DNA of 64,000 bases, taken from Pseudobdellovibrionaceae bacterium (GTDB lineage: Bacteria; Bdellovibrionota; Bdellovibrionia; Bdellovibrionales; Bdellovibrionaceae). The first letter of the stretch is position 1, and each line of letters starts with the position of its first letter. Below the pieces are notes generated by a model. The model saw nothing but the letters and a program-made list of their open reading frames with translations, was not told the DNA's origin and ran no database searches. This document shows positions 28,223-35,744 of this stretch, one piece after another. The stretch is from NCBI GenBank assembly GCA_030158485.1, contig JAOASS010000019.1, forward strand, positions 1-64,000, in the 5' to 3' direction. Position numbers and translations under genes: made by a program.

Positions 28223-29092
28223 TTACAGCATTGATTTCAAAGTTGTTCCCAAGTCAGCCGGGCTTCTTGCTATTTTGCAGCCGGCAGCTTCAAGCGCAGC
28301 AAATTTTGCTTCAGCTGTCCCTTTGCCGCCACTGATGATCGCGCCAGCGTGACCCATCCGCTTTCCTTTAGGCGCCGATGCCCCGGCAATAAAGGCAGTA
28401 ACAGGTTTTTTGAAATTCTTTTTAATATATTCCGCAGCCTCTTCTTCTGCTGAACCGCCGATTTCACCAATCATAATGACAGCATCGGTATCTTTATCTT
28501 CATTAAAAAGCTTCAGAACATCGATAAAATTTGTGCCATTCACGGGGTCGCCACCAATACCAACGCAAGTTGACTGGCCCAAACCCACTTTTGTTAGCTG
28601 GTGAACAGCTTCATAGGTGAGTGTTCCAGACCGCGATAAGACACCAATTCGTCCTTCTTTGTGAATATGACCTGGCATAATCCCAATTTTACATTGGCCC
28701 GGAGTAATAACGCCAGGGCAATTGGGACCAATCAGACGAGTTTTTTTGCCTTCCATGTAACGTTTTACTTTGACCATGTCTAAAACGGGGATTCCTTCAG
28801 TAATGCAAATGACTAAATCTAACCCGGCATCAACAGCTTCCATGATGGAGTCAGCGGCAAATGGTGGCGGCACAAAAATCATCGAAGTTGTGCAACCGGT
28901 TTCTGCTTTTGCTTGTTTAACAGTATTAAAAACAGGCAAATTCAAGTGTTTTGTTCCGCCTTTGCCAGGAGTCACCCCACCCACAAACTTGGACCCGCAA
29001 TAAGCCATTGATTGCTCAGTATGAAACGAGCCTTGAGCGCCCGTAATACCTTGAGTAATAATTTTTGTACTGTTGTTAATAAGGATTGCCAT
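28223..29092 (-). CDS. sucD: Succinyl-CoA synthetase alpha subunit
   Basis: A 289-residue TCA-cycle subunit that binds CoA and carries the phosphohistidine. Motifs: [28 protein letters not shown], and the active His in [20 protein letters not shown]. Succinyl-CoA plus ADP (or GDP) and phosphate gives succinate plus ATP (or GTP). The ATG overlaps the sucC stop (TAATG), so the subunits are made in equal amounts. Confidence 0.96.
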
Positions 29093-30261
29093 TATTTGTT
29101 CCCTCTTACGGCTGCGATCACTTTTTTTGCAGCGTCAGTTAAATCATCAGCAGGAGTGATATTGAGGCCGCTTTCTTTGAGCATTTTTTTACCTAATTCG
29201 ACATTGGTACCTTCAAGTCGCACAACAAGTGGAACCTTAAGTCCGACTTCTTTAGAAGCAGCAATAACACCATCCGCAATCACATCGCACTTCATGATGC
29301 CACCAAAAATATTCACCAAAATTGCTTTAACGTTAGGATCAGATAAAATAATTTTAAAAGCATGAGTCACTTTTTCTTTATTTGCACCACCCCCAACATC
29401 TAGAAAGTTAGCAGGAGATTCTCCATGAAGTTTAATAATATCAAGCGTAGACATCGCAAGACCGGCGCCGTTTACTAAGCAGCCGATATTTCCGTCCAAC
29501 TTAATAAAAGCTAAATCGTACTTAGAAGCTTCAATTTCAGAAGGCTCTTCTTCTGTTAAGTCCCTATATTCTGAAATATCTTTGTGACGGTAAAGTGCGT
29601 TCGAATCAAAGTTCATTTTAGCATCAAGGCAAATAATTTCACCTTCTTTGGTTAAAACAAGGGGATTGATTTCGGCAATTGAACAATCAATATCAACAAA
29701 TGCTTTATACAAACCCATCATAAAAGAGACGGCCTTGTTAATGCTTTCATTGGGGATACCAATTCCAAAAGCAAGTTCTCGTGCTTGAAAAGGAATCAAA
29801 CCAGTAACAGGATCAATATCAACTTTTAAAATAGCACTTGGGTTGTGTTCCGCAACTTCTTCAATATCCATTCCGCCTTCTGCGGATGCCATCATGGCGA
29901 CGCGACCCGTGGCCCGATCAACCAAGCACGCAACATAATATTCTTTTGCGATGTTGCAGCCTTGTTCAATGTAGATTTTGTTAACGGTTTTTCCTTCTGG
30001 GCCGGTTTGATGAGTCACTAGATTCATACCAATTATTTTTTTTGAAAGATCTTTTACTTCATCAATTGTTTTCGCAATTTTGACGCCGCCACCTTTTCCG
30101 CGCCCGCCCGCATGAATTTGAGCTTTGACAACCCACAGATTTCCACCAACTTCTTTTGCCGCAGCAACAGCTTCGTCCGGGGAGTGCGCAAGGCGACCCT
30201 TTAAAGTGGCCACACCGTAACGTCTAAGAACTTCTTTTGCCTGATACTCATGTATATTCAC
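29092..30261 (-). CDS. sucC: Succinyl-CoA synthetase beta subunit
   Basis: A 389-residue ATP-grasp subunit: [18 protein letters not shown] at the start, GRGKGGGVK nucleotide loop, [27 protein letters not shown] and [16 protein letters not shown]. Length is normal. It forms the nucleotide-binding half of the enzyme with SucD. It lies 30 bases after mdh, giving the order mdh-sucC-sucD, a compact TCA-cycle operon. Confidence 0.96.
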
Positions 30262-30291
30262 TGATTACTCCAGAAAGTGAGAGGGACATTA

Positions 30292-31242
30292 TTAATATTG
30301 TAGTTTAGCGAGCGCGTCGACAAGTTCACGAACGGCTTTACCAGACTTTTCAAGACCGGCACGTTCTGTATCATTCAGCTTCAGCTCAACAACGCTTTCG
30401 ACACCTTTACCGCCAAGCTTACAAAGAACGCCGATAAAAAGACCTTTCATGCCGTATTCGCCATTCAATTCAACTGCGCAAGGTAAGATTCGTTTTTGAT
30501 CTTTCAGAATCGCTTCAGCCATCTGCACTGCAGAAGCAGAAGGGGCGTAATAAGCAGAACCTGTTTGTAAAAGCTTAACAATTTCGGCGCCACCATTAAC
30601 TGCGCGATTCACAATTGCATCAATTTTATCTTGTGGAAGCATTTCAACTAAAGGGACTCCTCCAATAAAACAATGGCGGGGCATCGGAACCATTGTGTCG
30701 CCGTGTCCACCGAGAGTAAATCCAAAGACGTCTTTAACAGATACATCAAGCGCTTCTGCAACGAATGATTTAAAGCGCGCAGAGTCTAAGACGCCTGCCA
30801 TGCCGATAATTCGTTCGCGCGGAAATCCAAGAACTTGCTTGGCAACGGTACACATTGCATCAAGCGGATTTGAAACAACGATAACGACTGAATTTGGAGC
30901 ATATTGTTTGATCCCTTCACAGCATGCTTTTACAATTTTAGCGTTTGTTTGCAAAAGATCATCACGGCTCATGCCGGGCTTGCGTGGCATACCAGCTGTT
31001 AAAATCACAATGTCTGAATCAGCGATATCTTTATAGTCCGAAGTTCCTTGTACTCGCGAATCAAACATTTCAACAGGAGAAGCTTCAAATAAATCCAAAG
31101 CTTTACCTTTAGCAGCACCTTCGTTGATATCCAAAAGAACAACATCGCCCAATTCTTTTTGAGCAGCCCAATGCGCAGCTGTTGAGCCAACGAATCCAGC
31201 ACCGATAACAGTAATTTTTTTGCGTTTGTGGTAAGCAGACAT
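30292..31242 (-). CDS. mdh: Malate dehydrogenase
   Basis: A 316-residue NAD-dependent enzyme interconverting malate and oxaloacetate. The Rossmann motif [12 protein letters not shown], the substrate loop [16 protein letters not shown] with its arginines, the catalytic loop segments VSNPLDAMC and [12 protein letters not shown] (His) and a normal length mark the LDH-like (group 2) MDH. The arginine pattern favours malate over lactate. The start has GGAGTTCCC and heads the mdh-sucC-sucD run. Confidence 0.95.
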
Positions 31243-31338: not shown

Positions 31339-32115
31339 ATGTTTGAGGCGAGTCATCAGTCGAAGCAAGTGTTTCCATTTACCAATCTGGTCAAAGGCCG
31401 AGACATCAATCTCACATATCGAGACAATAAACTTCTTAACCAATGTCATTTTGATTTATCCGAGGGCGAAAGCTTGGTTTTAATTGGACCGAGCGGACAA
31501 GGTAAAACAACTTTGTTGAAACTGATGGCAGGCTTGGTCGAAGCCACTTCTGGCACCCTTGAATTTGAAGGTGAAAATTGGAGTAAACTCTCAATAACGC
31601 AACGCAAACGGCACTACTTGAAAAGGGGAATGCTTTTTCAGAAGAATGCGCTTTTTGATTCGATGACGGCTTTAGATAATGTTTGTTTCCCTTTGAGAGA
31701 AAGACATTTAGGCACAGAAAGCGAGATCAGGCAGAAAGCAGAAAGCTTATTGCATGCCGTAGGGCTAGATCATGCGGCGTCATTCTTTCCTGATGAAATG
31801 AGCGGTGGAATGCAAAAGCGCTTGGGTATTGCGCGTGCTTTAATTTCAAAGCCACCGATTTTATTGAATGACGATCCCGTCGCGGGCCTTGATCCGATTA
31901 CTTCACGCAAGATTATTGAATTGATTTTGAACTTAAAAAAAGAAAACTCGATAACAGTTGTATCGGTATTGAATGATATCAAGCGTGCTTTTGAGCTCGC
32001 GACAAGGCTTGTTTACGTCGACGGAGGGCAGGTTTTGAATTTAGGAACACCCGCAGAAGCCCAAAAATATCAAAATGAAAAAGTACAGAAATTTATTAAA
32101 GGTGAGCCCAATTGA
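31339..32115 (+). CDS. MlaF-like ABC ATPase with degenerate catalytic site
   Basis: About 258 residues from ATG 31339 (the frame also opens at TTG 31321). Walker A GPSGQGKTTLL, the Q-loop (LFQKNALFDS) and the signature DEMSGGMQKRLG are present. The Walker B reads ILLNDDPVAGLDP, so the catalytic Glu is Asp, and the switch region reads VVSVLNDIKRAFE where VTHD is expected, so the switch His is Asn. Both changes are visible in the codons (GAC GAT; AAT GAT). It probably binds ATP but hydrolyses it poorly. It is the first gene of the five-gene MCE transporter operon, overlapping the second ATPase by four bases. Confidence 0.88.
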   Translation: MFEASHQSKQVFPFTNLVKGRDINLTYRDNKLLNQCHFDLSEGESLVLIGPSGQGKTTLLKLMAGLVEATSGTLEFEGENWSKLSITQRKRHYLKRGMLFQKNALFDSMTALDNVCFPLRERHLGTESEIRQKAESLLHAVGLDHAASFFPDEMSGGMQKRLGIARALISKPPILLNDDPVAGLDPITSRKIIELILNLKKENSITVVSVLNDIKRAFELATRLVYVDGGQVLNLGTPAEAQKYQNEKVQKFIKGEPN

Positions 32116-32846
32116 TACTTGAATTTAAAAATCTCACTAAAAAATTTGGTGAAAGAACAGTTTTGAATTCAATTCATTTTTCTATCAAGAAGAGCGAAAT
32201 AGTTTTCATACTGGGCCAGTCTGGCACAGGAAAATCAGTTTTGCTAAAGTCGATAGTGGGGCTTTTAAAGCCCGAGGTCGGCGAGATACTTTTCAAAGGC
32301 TCGAATATTGTAAATTTCAATGAAATGCAAATGCAAGAAATTCGCAAAAAATGTGGAATGGTGTTTCAGCAGCCAGCACTTTTTGACTCTCTTACTATTT
32401 ATGAAAACATAGCATATGGTCTGCGCCGGCATTTTAAATATACCGAAGAAGCCATTCAGGATAAGATACAAAAAGTATTGAGCTCCGTTCATTTAGAACA
32501 AAATATTCTTCAAAAAAAACCACAACAAGTTTCTTACGGAATGCAAAAGCGAGTCAGCCTTGCGCGCACACTTGTTTTAGAGCCTGAAATTTTACTTTTT
32601 GATGAGCCGACAACGGGGCTTGACCCCGTGACAACAACGGCCATTAACAGACTTATTAAAGAAGTATCTATTCAATATAAAACAACTTCCGTTGTGGTCA
32701 GTCATGACATGAAGTGCGCGATGGATATTGCGAACAGAGTCATATTTTTAGATAAAGGGTCTGTGATATTTGCAGGCCCTACCGATGAAATAAAATTAAA
32801 TGAACATCCACTTGTCCGAGGCTTTTTTCAAGAGGTCGAGCCATGA
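32112..32846 (+). CDS. MlaF-like ABC ATPase, canonical
   Basis: A 244-residue ATPase starting at TTG 32112 inside the stop of the previous gene. Unlike its neighbour it has all key elements: Walker A GQSGTGKSVLL, Q-loop MVFQQPALFDSLT, signature VSYGMQKRVSLA, Walker B EILLFDEPTTGLDP and VVVSHDMKCAM with the switch His. The signature is YGMQ rather than SGGQ, as also occurs in this family. The two unlike ATPases probably form a heterodimer with one strong and one weak site (inference). Confidence 0.9.
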   Translation: MILEFKNLTKKFGERTVLNSIHFSIKKSEIVFILGQSGTGKSVLLKSIVGLLKPEVGEILFKGSNIVNFNEMQMQEIRKKCGMVFQQPALFDSLTIYENIAYGLRRHFKYTEEAIQDKIQKVLSSVHLEQNILQKKPQQVSYGMQKRVSLARTLVLEPEILLFDEPTTGLDPVTTTAINRLIKEVSIQYKTTSVVVSHDMKCAMDIANRVIFLDKGSVIFAGPTDEIKLNEHPLVRGFFQEVEP

Positions 32847-33634
32847 CGATTATTCTAAAAAGAAACTGGGACTCTTTTTTCGACGAAACCGGGAAAATAT
32901 TTCTTTTTTTAAAAGATCTAATCAGCCTGACATTTAAAGGTGGATTTGAATCTCGTACATTTTTAGAACAACTTTGGAAAGTCACTGTTCAATCTCTGCC
33001 AACAACCATGATGGCTGGATTTTTTGTTGGTGCCGTTATGACGGTGCAATTTACTCTTCAAATTAAAATATTCGATGCTCTTAGTTATTTAGGGGGACTT
33101 GCGACCAGTGGAACTTTTCGAGAAGTCGGCCCGCTTTTGATTGGTTTTATGTTGTGCGGAAAAGTCGGAGCCTTCACTACGGCGGAGCTCGGGACGATGA
33201 GAATCACAGAACAATTTGATGCGATTAAATGCCTAGGCTCAGATCCCTTACGAGAAGTGATTTTGCCACGATTTTGGGCCATTATATTTTCTGCTTTTTT
33301 TCTTTTTGTTGGTGGACTGATTGCTTCAGTTTTTGGCGGACTTTTATTGGGGGTCTTTTTTTCACAAGTGACGATGCACGAATACTTACGGTATATACCT
33401 CGATTTCTTATTTTCCCCTCGATTGTCAGTGGGTTTTTAAAAAGTTTTATCTTTTCGTTCACTCTTGCAACACTCTGTACCTTTAAAGGATACTTTGTAA
33501 CGGGCGGAGCGAAAGGAGTCGGCCAGGCCGTTGTCAGCACGGCTGTGACTACTATGATTGCATTGGTCTTCTTTGACTGGCTCACATCGTACTTGATGGA
33601 AATCGCGACCATTATTTACTTGGGACTTTCATGA
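32843..33634 (+). CDS. MlaE-family permease 1
   Basis: A 263-residue inner-membrane protein, about five to six hydrophobic segments, with the MlaE signature: ATSGTFREVGPLLIGFMLCG, AFTTAELGTMRITEQFDAIK, CLGSDPLREVILPRFWA. The EQFDA and CLGSDP region is the coupling helix that contacts the ATPase. An N-terminal amphipathic stretch (FFDETGKIFLFLKDLISL) precedes it. It overlaps the ATPase and the second permease by ATGA. Confidence 0.9.
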   Translation: MTIILKRNWDSFFDETGKIFLFLKDLISLTFKGGFESRTFLEQLWKVTVQSLPTTMMAGFFVGAVMTVQFTLQIKIFDALSYLGGLATSGTFREVGPLLIGFMLCGKVGAFTTAELGTMRITEQFDAIKCLGSDPLREVILPRFWAIIFSAFFLFVGGLIASVFGGLLLGVFFSQVTMHEYLRYIPRFLIFPSIVSGFLKSFIFSFTLATLCTFKGYFVTGGAKGVGQAVVSTAVTTMIALVFFDWLTSYLMEIATIIYLGLS

Positions 33635-34350
33635 CAACTTTTTTAACTCAAACCTTGAGTGCATTACCTGCTAGTTTAAATCGAAAAAAGCAGATTTTCG
33701 AACAGCTGCACTTCGTAGGCTACCAAAGTCTTTTTATTATCTGTATTTGTGTTTCTTTTGCAGCGATTGTGACAGTTTTAGAGTCAAGCTTTCACATGAA
33801 ACTTGTTGTGCAAAGTGACTCGATGGTTCCTGGATTTTCTTCTATTTTGATTTTAAGAGAACTCGGTTCAGTTGTGACTGCACTTCTTTTAACTTCAAGA
33901 GTCGGCGCCGGAATGGCCGCGGAACTTGGAAGTATGAAAATTTCTGAACAAATTGAAGCCTTGAAACTTTTAGGCGTGAATCCCTATGAGTATTTGGTAG
34001 CACCTCGTTTTATATCAAGTATTTTAGGTACTGTTTTTTTAGTCGCCATCGCCAACGTTGTTTGTTTATATGCTTCGATGCTGGTTTCATCCAGTTTATT
34101 GGGAATGCCGGGCCCGCTTTTTTGGCAGACGATGAACCAGTTTGTTGGATACAAAGATTTTATTTTTTCTCTTATCAAGGCGGCCGCTTTTGGCTCTGTT
34201 ATTCCTTTAATTAGTTGTTATTATGGATTCAATACTGAAATGGGTGCAGAAGGAGTTGGACAAGCAACAACTCAAAGTGTTGTTGTTGCATCAGTTGCAA
34301 TTATAGTGATTGATTTTATACTCTCATATGTATTTTCATATTTCTATTAG
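33631..34350 (+). CDS. MlaE-family permease 2
   Basis: A 239-residue permease from the same family but distinct from permease 1: SSILILRELGSVVTALLLTS, GAGMAAELGSMKISEQIEAL, KLLGVNPYEYLVAPRFIS. Five or so membrane helices. Two permeases in one operon suggest a heteromeric membrane core matching the two ATPases; Mla systems normally have a homodimer. Confidence 0.9.
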   Translation: MTTFLTQTLSALPASLNRKKQIFEQLHFVGYQSLFIICICVSFAAIVTVLESSFHMKLVVQSDSMVPGFSSILILRELGSVVTALLLTSRVGAGMAAELGSMKISEQIEALKLLGVNPYEYLVAPRFISSILGTVFLVAIANVVCLYASMLVSSSLLGMPGPLFWQTMNQFVGYKDFIFSLIKAAAFGSVIPLISCYYGFNTEMGAEGVGQATTQSVVVASVAIIVIDFILSYVFSYFY

Positions 34351-34361
34351 GGTGGTACGGG

Positions 34362-35138
34362 ATGAAAATTGAAACAAAAGTGGGCCTTTTAGCTTTCGCG
34401 GCAATTATTGCCATCGTTTTATTTGGGTATTGGGTCGGGCTCTATAATCCTTTTACAAATCAACACAAGCTCCACGTTATGTATAACTATGCAGGTGGGA
34501 TTGAAGTGGGTTCCCCCGTCAGAGTCATGGGTATAAAAGTTGGAAAAGTGGATCGCATTGAATTTAAATCTGATTACAAAACAGACACAGGTGAAGAAGT
34601 TAAGCTTCAAATCACGATTTCAATCGAAAAAAAGGCCTGGAATAGCATCCGCATGGATAGCCAGTTCTTTATTAATTTGGCAGGAGTCATCGGCGAAAAG
34701 TTTCTTGAAATATCACCGGGCTCAAACGATTCAGAAGTTCTGAAGCCGGATCAGTTTGTTAGAGGCGAAGATCCTCCGCGAATTGACCAGCTAATTTCAC
34801 AAAGTTACGGCCTTGCCGGTAAAATTATTGCGATGATAGAAAAAAATGAAGGAACTTTGACAAATACAGTGGCACAAATTGATCGTCTACTAACGAATTT
34901 TAACAAAACCTTACAACTTTTAGATAAAACAAGAAGTAATAAAGATATAGAGCGTATGGTGAGTAATTTGATTGTGATTACAGATAATGTGGCGGACCTT
35001 ACGACAAAGCTGAAGGGCAAGAAAGCAGATGAGACCTATGATCTGATCCACAAGCTTATTTGGAGATTAGAACCTTTGGATAAAGACGCGATAAAAAAGT
35101 TTTTTCAAGAAGAAGGCATTCGGGCCCGACTTCTCTAG
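34362..35138 (+). CDS. MlaD/MCE-domain lipid-binding protein
   Basis: A 258-residue periplasmic protein anchored by one N-terminal helix (VGLLAFAAIIAIVLFGYWVG). The MCE domain starts at YAGGIEVGSPVRVMGIKVGK and includes DRIEFKSDY and GVIGEKFLEISPGS; the C-terminal half is helical (NEGTLTNTVAQIDRLLTNFN). MCE rings carry lipids between the inner and outer membranes. Only one MCE gene is present. GGTACGGG lies ahead of the ATG. No MlaA-, MlaB- or MlaC-type gene is seen beside it. Confidence 0.88.
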   Translation: MKIETKVGLLAFAAIIAIVLFGYWVGLYNPFTNQHKLHVMYNYAGGIEVGSPVRVMGIKVGKVDRIEFKSDYKTDTGEEVKLQITISIEKKAWNSIRMDSQFFINLAGVIGEKFLEISPGSNDSEVLKPDQFVRGEDPPRIDQLISQSYGLAGKIIAMIEKNEGTLTNTVAQIDRLLTNFNKTLQLLDKTRSNKDIERMVSNLIVITDNVADLTTKLKGKKADETYDLIHKLIWRLEPLDKDAIKKFFQEEGIRARLL

Positions 35139-35165
35139 TTTTATTATAAGAAATAAGGGGTTTTT

Positions 35166-35744
35166 ATGAAAATGATGACGCTATTATCTTTAATCGCCTC
35201 TTTTGCATTAGCACAAGAAAACAGCGGTGACGGTTTTATTGGCAAAACTCAAGGATCTACTTCAGATTACGAATCAAATTATAAACTGCGACAAGATCGC
35301 AAAGTGGGTGCGGGAGTTGGGATTGGTGGGGCACTCGGCGGCATGGGCGGGTTGATTGAACTCAATATTGAAGATGAAAATGCAACGTTAGTGGGATTTG
35401 GCATGGGTTCAGGTTATCAAACGATGAGTCTTGCTTGGAAAAAATCATTTGAGGGGGAATATTTCACTCCCTACACAACAGCAGGTTACTCACGATGGTG
35501 GGATTCTGGCAGTAAAAGTCAGGCGAACAGATCTTCGCTACTCAAAAATTTCCTATCTGATAGCGAAAAACAAAAAAGTAAATTTGGACTCGACCTTGTG
35601 ACTGGTTCAGTCGGCATGCAATATAATCAATTGTCTGGTGAGCTCGCGGGAAGTTCTTTTTATATCGAATTGGGCGGTCTCTTGAGCTTTAAGAAGACTC
35701 AGCTGATACCAACTGGATCTGTTGGTGCCTTCTACTATTTTTAA
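35166..35744 (+). CDS. Exported glycine-rich protein, possible outer-membrane beta-barrel
   Basis: A 192-residue protein with a signal peptide (MKMMTLLSLIASFALA, cut before QEN). Alternating Gly/aromatic segments (VGAGVGIGGALGGMGGLIEL, TTAGYSRWWDSG, SVGMQYNQLSGELA, IELGGLLSFKK) and the terminal aromatic (GAFYYF) fit a small outer-membrane barrel. It is 27 bases after the MCE gene and may be the outer-membrane partner, but no family match is known to me. Confidence 0.65.
   Translation: MKMMTLLSLIASFALAQENSGDGFIGKTQGSTSDYESNYKLRQDRKVGAGVGIGGALGGMGGLIELNIEDENATLVGFGMGSGYQTMSLAWKKSFEGEYFTPYTTAGYSRWWDSGSKSQANRSSLLKNFLSDSEKQKSKFGLDLVTGSVGMQYNQLSGELAGSSFYIELGGLLSFKKTQLIPTGSVGAFYYF

Follow-up and report, generated by a model that had tools for sequence, protein, structure and literature searches.

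An ATPase pair with complementary motif changes

MCE transporters carry lipids from one bacterial membrane to another; the direction of this movement and its coupling to ATP are both disputed. The 64,000-nucleotide stretch of a Pseudobdellovibrionaceae genome analysed here (contig JAOASS010000019.1, hereafter the window) carries a cluster of six genes that raises the question of why an MCE transporter should encode two different ATPases. The cluster specifies two ATP-binding cassette (ABC) ATPases (A1 and A2), two MlaE-family permeases (P1 and P2), an MCE/MlaD protein (M) and a small exported protein (B). An earlier reading of the letters alone (the sequence-only reading) had proposed this layout; the open reading frames, coordinates and overlapping start and stop codons were confirmed, and the Pfam families agree with it (Table 1). 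Two MlaE permeases together with an MlaD protein that has an N-terminal transmembrane helix place the system among the MCE/Mla-type (type VIII) ABC transporters. The motifs of the two ATPases suggest an answer: this MlaE-family MCE lipid transporter is very probably an obligate hetero-assembly, with a heterodimeric ATPase, a heterodimeric permease and one catalytic ATP site. We infer the pairing of A1 with A2, and their ATPase activity, from sequence.

A1 has an intact Walker A motif (GPSGQGKT) and the signature SGGMQKR, together with the Walker B sequence LLNDDP and the switch sequence VLND; the replacement of the Walker B Glu by Asp and of the switch His by Asn was thus as the sequence-only reading had described it. 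That reading had also called A2 canonical, which was correct for the catalytic Glu (FDEP) and the switch His (SHD) but overlooked the signature, SYGMQKR, in which Tyr replaces the first Gly of SGGMQKR. In an ABC dimer, each subunit contributes its Walker A and B motifs and its switch (H-loop) to one ATP site and its signature to the opposite one (PMC7756269). In a dimer of A1 with A2, the Asp and Asn of A1 would therefore share a composite site with the SYG of A2, and the second site would be intact. This confinement of the changes to one composite site is the reciprocal defect of degenerate-site heterodimeric ABC transporters. The solved MCE/Mla members have a single type of ATPase, which is a trait of those members and not a definition of the family; the window system has two unequal ones.

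We counted the motifs in relatives whose loci were fetched and aligned, and after removal of duplicates there were 84 distinct A1 and 91 distinct A2 sequences. The switch position of A1 was Asn in 75, Ser in 7, Gly in 1 and His in 1 (L136), and every one of the 91 A2 sequences kept both the catalytic Glu and the switch His. Conservation of the Asp/Asn pair in Bdellovibrionota, which the sequence-only reading had put forward as a check, therefore held for the loss of His (83/84) and in part for Asp (73/84), and all 11 A1 sequences that keep Glu came from classes other than that of the window. A sequencing error or a lone mutation in A1 was rejected, the altered motifs being conserved in relatives, and so was the Glu to Asp change as the defining one, Glu being kept in other classes. 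Judged from the alignments, the conserved core is the loss of the A1 His together with an aromatic residue in the A2 signature, and the Glu to Asp change is secondary. We infer that the first two changes arose first, and that the change to Asp came later or repeatedly. A1 is also less conserved than A2 (mean identity 51% vs 60%, and lower in 97.5% of species pairs), as would be expected if the catalytic residues are those of A2.

The claim of a heterodimer with one catalytic site, made initially from A1 alone, remains the best reading and appears strengthened by the complementary signature defect of A2 and by the paralogs. Most of the paralogous MCE systems with a single ATPase and a single permease in the same genomes show the canonical motifs (SGG, DEP and His), the exception being the C13 type described below, and the motifs are likewise canonical in E. 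coli MlaF and in four MCE-type ATPases encoded on plasmids. In a phylogenetic tree, A1 formed one clade (99/91 support) with A2 outside it; the deepest A2 branches were not resolved, and the bootstrap had yet to converge.

Table 1. Genes of the cluster and diagnostic ATPase positions (coordinates within the window)
Feature	Coordinates	Strand	Evidence
A1, degenerate ABC ATPase, 258 aa	31339..32115	+	Pfam ABC_tran, E 8.1e-33
A1 signature SGGMQ, intact; predicted to complete the consensus ATP site in trans	31801..31815	+	SGG in 84/84 distinct A1
A1 catalytic Glu position, Asp here (D179)	31873..31875	+	Asp 73, Glu 11 of 84 distinct A1
A1 switch His position, Asn here (N212)	31972..31974	+	non-His in 83/84 distinct A1
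A2, predicted catalytic ABC ATPase, 244 aa, TTG start	32112..32846	+	Pfam ABC_tran, E 4.1e-36
A2 signature S-Y-G, degenerate, Tyr for Gly	32532..32540	+	Tyr 83, Phe 7, His 1 of 91 distinct A2
A2 switch His (H198), intact	32703..32705	+	His in 91/91 distinct A2
P1, MlaE-family permease 1, 263 aa	32843..33634	+	Pfam MlaE, E 3.5e-57; profile matches MlaE 6xbd and YrbE1A 8fed
P2, MlaE-family permease 2, 239 aa, shorter N terminus	33631..34350	+	Pfam MlaE, E 1.6e-62
M, MCE/MlaD protein, 258 aa	34362..35138	+	Pfam MlaD, E 1.6e-16; PDB matches to YebT/MlaD; model pLDDT 73.5
B, exported 8-stranded outer-membrane beta-barrel (modelled), 192 aa	35166..35744	+	AlphaFold pLDDT 90.5; OprF/OmpA fold matches

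Two further kinds of deviant ATPase were seen. Orphan A1-like ATPases (L237-L245, for example L237:3739-4503), which occur in several genomes and nest inside the A1 clade, have the Walker B Asp, often a switch His, and no MCE genes alongside. On another contig of the window's own genome, C13 (L058:4424-5131, minus strand), a further MCE cluster has one permease, one MCE gene and an ATPase in which PGRLRKL replaces SGGMQKR, leaving no recognisable signature; its Walker B region reads DDPSVGL and its switch residue is Tyr or Phe. This type was also seen in L252, L253, L254 and L257-L265, with 49-61% identity among family members; it was sought in two g3 genomes without success. The C13-type ATPase may be non-hydrolysing.

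Distribution and co-inheritance

How widely is the unequal pair kept? When 60 relatives were searched with P1, the matches fell into two well-separated groups, orthologs (49-66% identity, E < 1e-72) and paralogs (about 30% identity, with E about 1e-35 or weaker). At a threshold of E <= 1e-60, a P1 profile detected the permease in 134 of 291 genomes sampled from the phylum; 71 of these belong to the window's class and 63 to other classes. The order A1-A2-P1-P2-M(-B) was found in 97 of 123 loci examined, from several classes; the 123 include some duplicate records, and several loci outside the 97 are interrupted by contig ends. All 18 loci opened from other classes had the order A1-A2-P1-P2. In the window, the cluster adjoins mdh, sucC and sucD on the opposite strand (28223-31242), and the same neighbours in the relatives L039, L249, L251 and L052 support the orthology of the cluster.

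Co-occurrence of A1 with P1 was counted within the window's class, because the ATPase profile fails to separate A1 from its paralogs in distant classes. There, A1 was detected in 70 of the 71 genomes having P1, and the exception (G035) is an assembly that is 89% complete. A1 does not adjoin A2 in five genomes, lying about 2-4 kb upstream in G007, G003 and G006 and on another contig in G042 and G017; these unlinked copies still carry the altered motifs. Loss of A1 from genomes without an adjacent copy was thus rejected where it was checked. Profile searches found neither P1 nor A1 in genus g3 (G004, G023, G028, G031, G034, G249, G262, G268, G271 and G281) or in G005. Every sampled genome of genus g6, which belongs to the same family as g3 and includes genomes near Bdellovibrio bacteriovorus, had both A1 and P1.

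A scan of 84,980 genomes with two peptide patterns, an approach that misses distant members, located the cluster in Bdellovibrio bacteriovorus kdesi and in records that bear the label Bdellovibrionales, Bdellovibrionaceae or Oligoflexia. Profile searches beyond the phylum covered the Cyanobacteria (146 genomes) and plasmid records. A cyanobacterial origin or spread was rejected, since in the 146 genomes P1 scored no better than E 3.5e-48, which is in the paralog range. Two contigs with a Bdellovibrionota permease are titled 'Streptomyces griseus' and 'Okeania' (L111 and L144), suggesting mislabelled or contaminated assemblies; the Okeania match (54 residues at 80%) looks like contamination. 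In the plasmid records, permeases were only about 30% identical, and each of the four clusters opened had one canonical ATPase.

At the A1/A2, A2/P1 and P1/P2 junctions, adjoining genes share 4 bases that join the stop codon of one to the start codon of the next, which suggests translational coupling of these genes, and the overlapping frames would favour equal synthesis of the subunits. A lopsided ATPase pair, of which only A2 is predicted to build a normal ATP-splitting site, appears to be kept across the phylum. If this is true, evolution has assigned the catalytic ATP site and the non-catalytic one to separate genes and has done likewise with the halves of the permease, and any one site or half could be mutated alone, for which homodimers such as MlaF2E2 offer no easy opportunity.

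A proposed one-site mechanism and its alternatives

We propose that A1 and A2 pair into one nucleotide-binding domain (NBD) dimer and that the A1-A2-P1-P2 assembly sits under a hexamer of M. The site made of the Walker A, Walker B and switch His of A2 with the SGGMQ of A1 would hydrolyse ATP and reset the transporter, and the site made of the Walker A and the Asp and Asn of A1 with the SYG of A2 would bind and hold ATP with little or no hydrolysis. Roughly one ATP would be used per cycle, as proposed for TM287/288 and MsRv1273c/72c, and the asymmetric motor would act on the P1/P2 heterodimer to pass lipid through the M ring.

Beyond the ring, the path of the lipid is suggested by M and B. M consists of a transmembrane helix, one beta MCE domain and a helical C-terminal region of about 115 residues that ends in a conserved FLQEEGIxA-like motif. 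No Pfam or NCBIfam family matched B. The sequence-only reading had suspected a small barrel-like exported protein, and an AlphaFold model built from an alignment of 28 relatives is an 8-stranded barrel (predicted local distance difference test score, pLDDT, 90.5), to which the barrels of OprF and OmpA come closest among solved structures. The MlaC shuttle and the MlaA outer-membrane lipoprotein of the E. coli-type Mla pathway had no match in the genome, which is 98.3% complete (PF05494 and PF04333; both detected in an E. coli control), so an E. coli-type soluble shuttle is unlikely. Because neither partner is detectable, the helical region of M may carry lipid across the periplasm, perhaps ending at B, which in the window's class may be the outer-membrane end of the system. 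A wider proposal, that the cluster represents an ancestral, phylum-wide class of MCE system, an obligate hetero-assembly using one ATP per cycle, and that in Bdellovibrionia it forms with the separate barrel a split lipid bridge without MlaA or MlaC, is one that we put forward only tentatively and consider rather doubtful as a whole. As for the features of a trans-envelope bridge, B is modelled as a barrel but is a separate protein, and the helices of M are of low confidence.

Several observations weigh against the one-site hetero-assembly. One A1 (L136) has a switch His, and A1 in other classes keeps Glu, which means that some activity may persist at the A1 site; moreover, sites with Asp in place of Glu can still hydrolyse slowly (PMC7756269). 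The signature of E. coli LivG also has Tyr, so Tyr alone need not inactivate a site. Once A1 has lost its residues, there is an even chance that a signature defect ends up in the site already affected, so the argument from complementarity rests on conservation and not on one case. The helical region of M is modelled with low confidence (overall pLDDT 73.5). B was not found in many relatives from other classes and is best regarded as accessory, not as a core part.

Some of these points favour a heterodimer in which both sites hydrolyse ATP, the substitutions tuning the rate and the asymmetry being regulatory only: Asp is a conservative replacement for Glu and leaves slow hydrolysis at such sites, 11 of 84 A1 sequences keep Glu, and LivG (AYGDQ) shares the Tyr. 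In the window's class, however, one site combines the Glu to Asp, His to Asn and Gly to Tyr changes, and evolution has been faster in A1 than in A2; both points make this alternative unlikely. It is still harder to credit that A1 is a non-hydrolysing regulator, exchanging with the orphan A1-like ATPases or binding A2 reversibly in the manner of the control of MlaF by MlaB. The cluster has no MlaB-like gene, A1 is sometimes unlinked, and the orphans, present in several genomes, nest within the A1 clade, all of which speaks for such a regulator; yet A1 keeps an ATP-binding Walker A motif and the SGGMQ that the A2 site needs in trans, implying a role in an NBD dimer.

The arrangement might also represent two separate transporters in one operon, an A2 homodimer on one permease and an A1 homodimer on the other. 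It would fit the retention of Walker A, the Walker B Asp and the D-loop Asp by each ATPase, the ability of A1 to lie apart from A2-P1-P2-M, and the existence of orphans without a neighbouring permease. We nonetheless regard it as most improbable, given that there is one MCE gene only, that homodimers of A1 would have no switch His at either site and those of A2 an altered signature at each, and that the reciprocal pattern is phylum-wide, with A1 found almost wherever P1 is (70/71) in the window's class. The one-site hetero-assembly is the reading that we compare with known systems below.

Comparison with known systems

The sequence-only reading had stated that known Mla systems are homodimeric in ATPase and permease. 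This is correct for E. coli MlaFEDB, which is MlaF2E2D6B2 with identical ATPases and identical permeases (PMC7790496), and for the ATPase of mycobacterial Mce1, but not for the Mce1 permease: there, a YrbE heterodimer (YrbE1A/YrbE1B; 8fed) is combined with a homodimer of MceG, which has a long C-terminal extension, and a ring of six different Mce proteins (PMC9882608). The window system shares the ATPase, MlaE permease and MCE families with MlaFEDB (6xbd), which provides the nearest solved permease and is among the nearest solved ATPases, but MlaFEDB works with MlaC and MlaA, whereas the window system has two unequal ATPases and two unequal permeases. With Mce1 it shares a heterodimeric MlaE-family permease under an MCE assembly and differs in its duplicated ATPase and single MCE gene.

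Degenerate-site exporters have the type I exporter fold, with fused transmembrane domain and NBD. In TAP, TM287/288, TmrAB and MsRv1273c/72c, as in the window, one site has an altered catalytic Glu and switch His in one NBD, often with an altered signature in the partner (PMC7756269, PMC12038006). In known heterodimers the degenerate site combines a signature change in one NBD with a Glu to Asp change in Walker B of the other, and for TM287/288 it was proposed that ATP is held at the degenerate site and hydrolysed at the other (PMC7756269). MsRv1273c has Asp at the catalytic Glu and Gln at the switch His position (PMC12038006). The permeases of these exporters are unrelated to P1 and P2, and they have no MCE protein. 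If our reading is true, the MlaE-type fold joins the drug and peptide exporters, in which degenerate-site asymmetry is most familiar.

That this layout is known in exporters and not in MCE transporters, as the sequence-only reading had it, stood in its second part, as we found no description of an ATPase heterodimer in an MCE system in the open-licence literature. The reciprocal layout is not confined to exporters, however, because the importer LivF/LivG of E. coli (L196) shows a similar pattern: read from sequence, LivF has SGGEQ with a switch Gln, and LivG has AYGDQ with His. LivF keeps its Glu, and the system imports branched-chain amino acids with other permeases and with binding proteins. 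The likeness is probably convergent, because A1 and A2 did not group with LivF and LivG in the tree, a placement that was weakly supported.

A parallel for the outer end of the system is Veillonella parvula MlaEFD, which also has no MlaA or MlaC and whose long MlaD, comprising an MCE domain, helices and an outer-membrane barrel, has been proposed as a bridge (PMC10665443). The barrel there has 10 strands and is fused to MlaD, whereas in the window the modelled 8-stranded barrel is a separate protein and the ATPases are unequal; B may be part of a split version of the Veillonella long MlaD.

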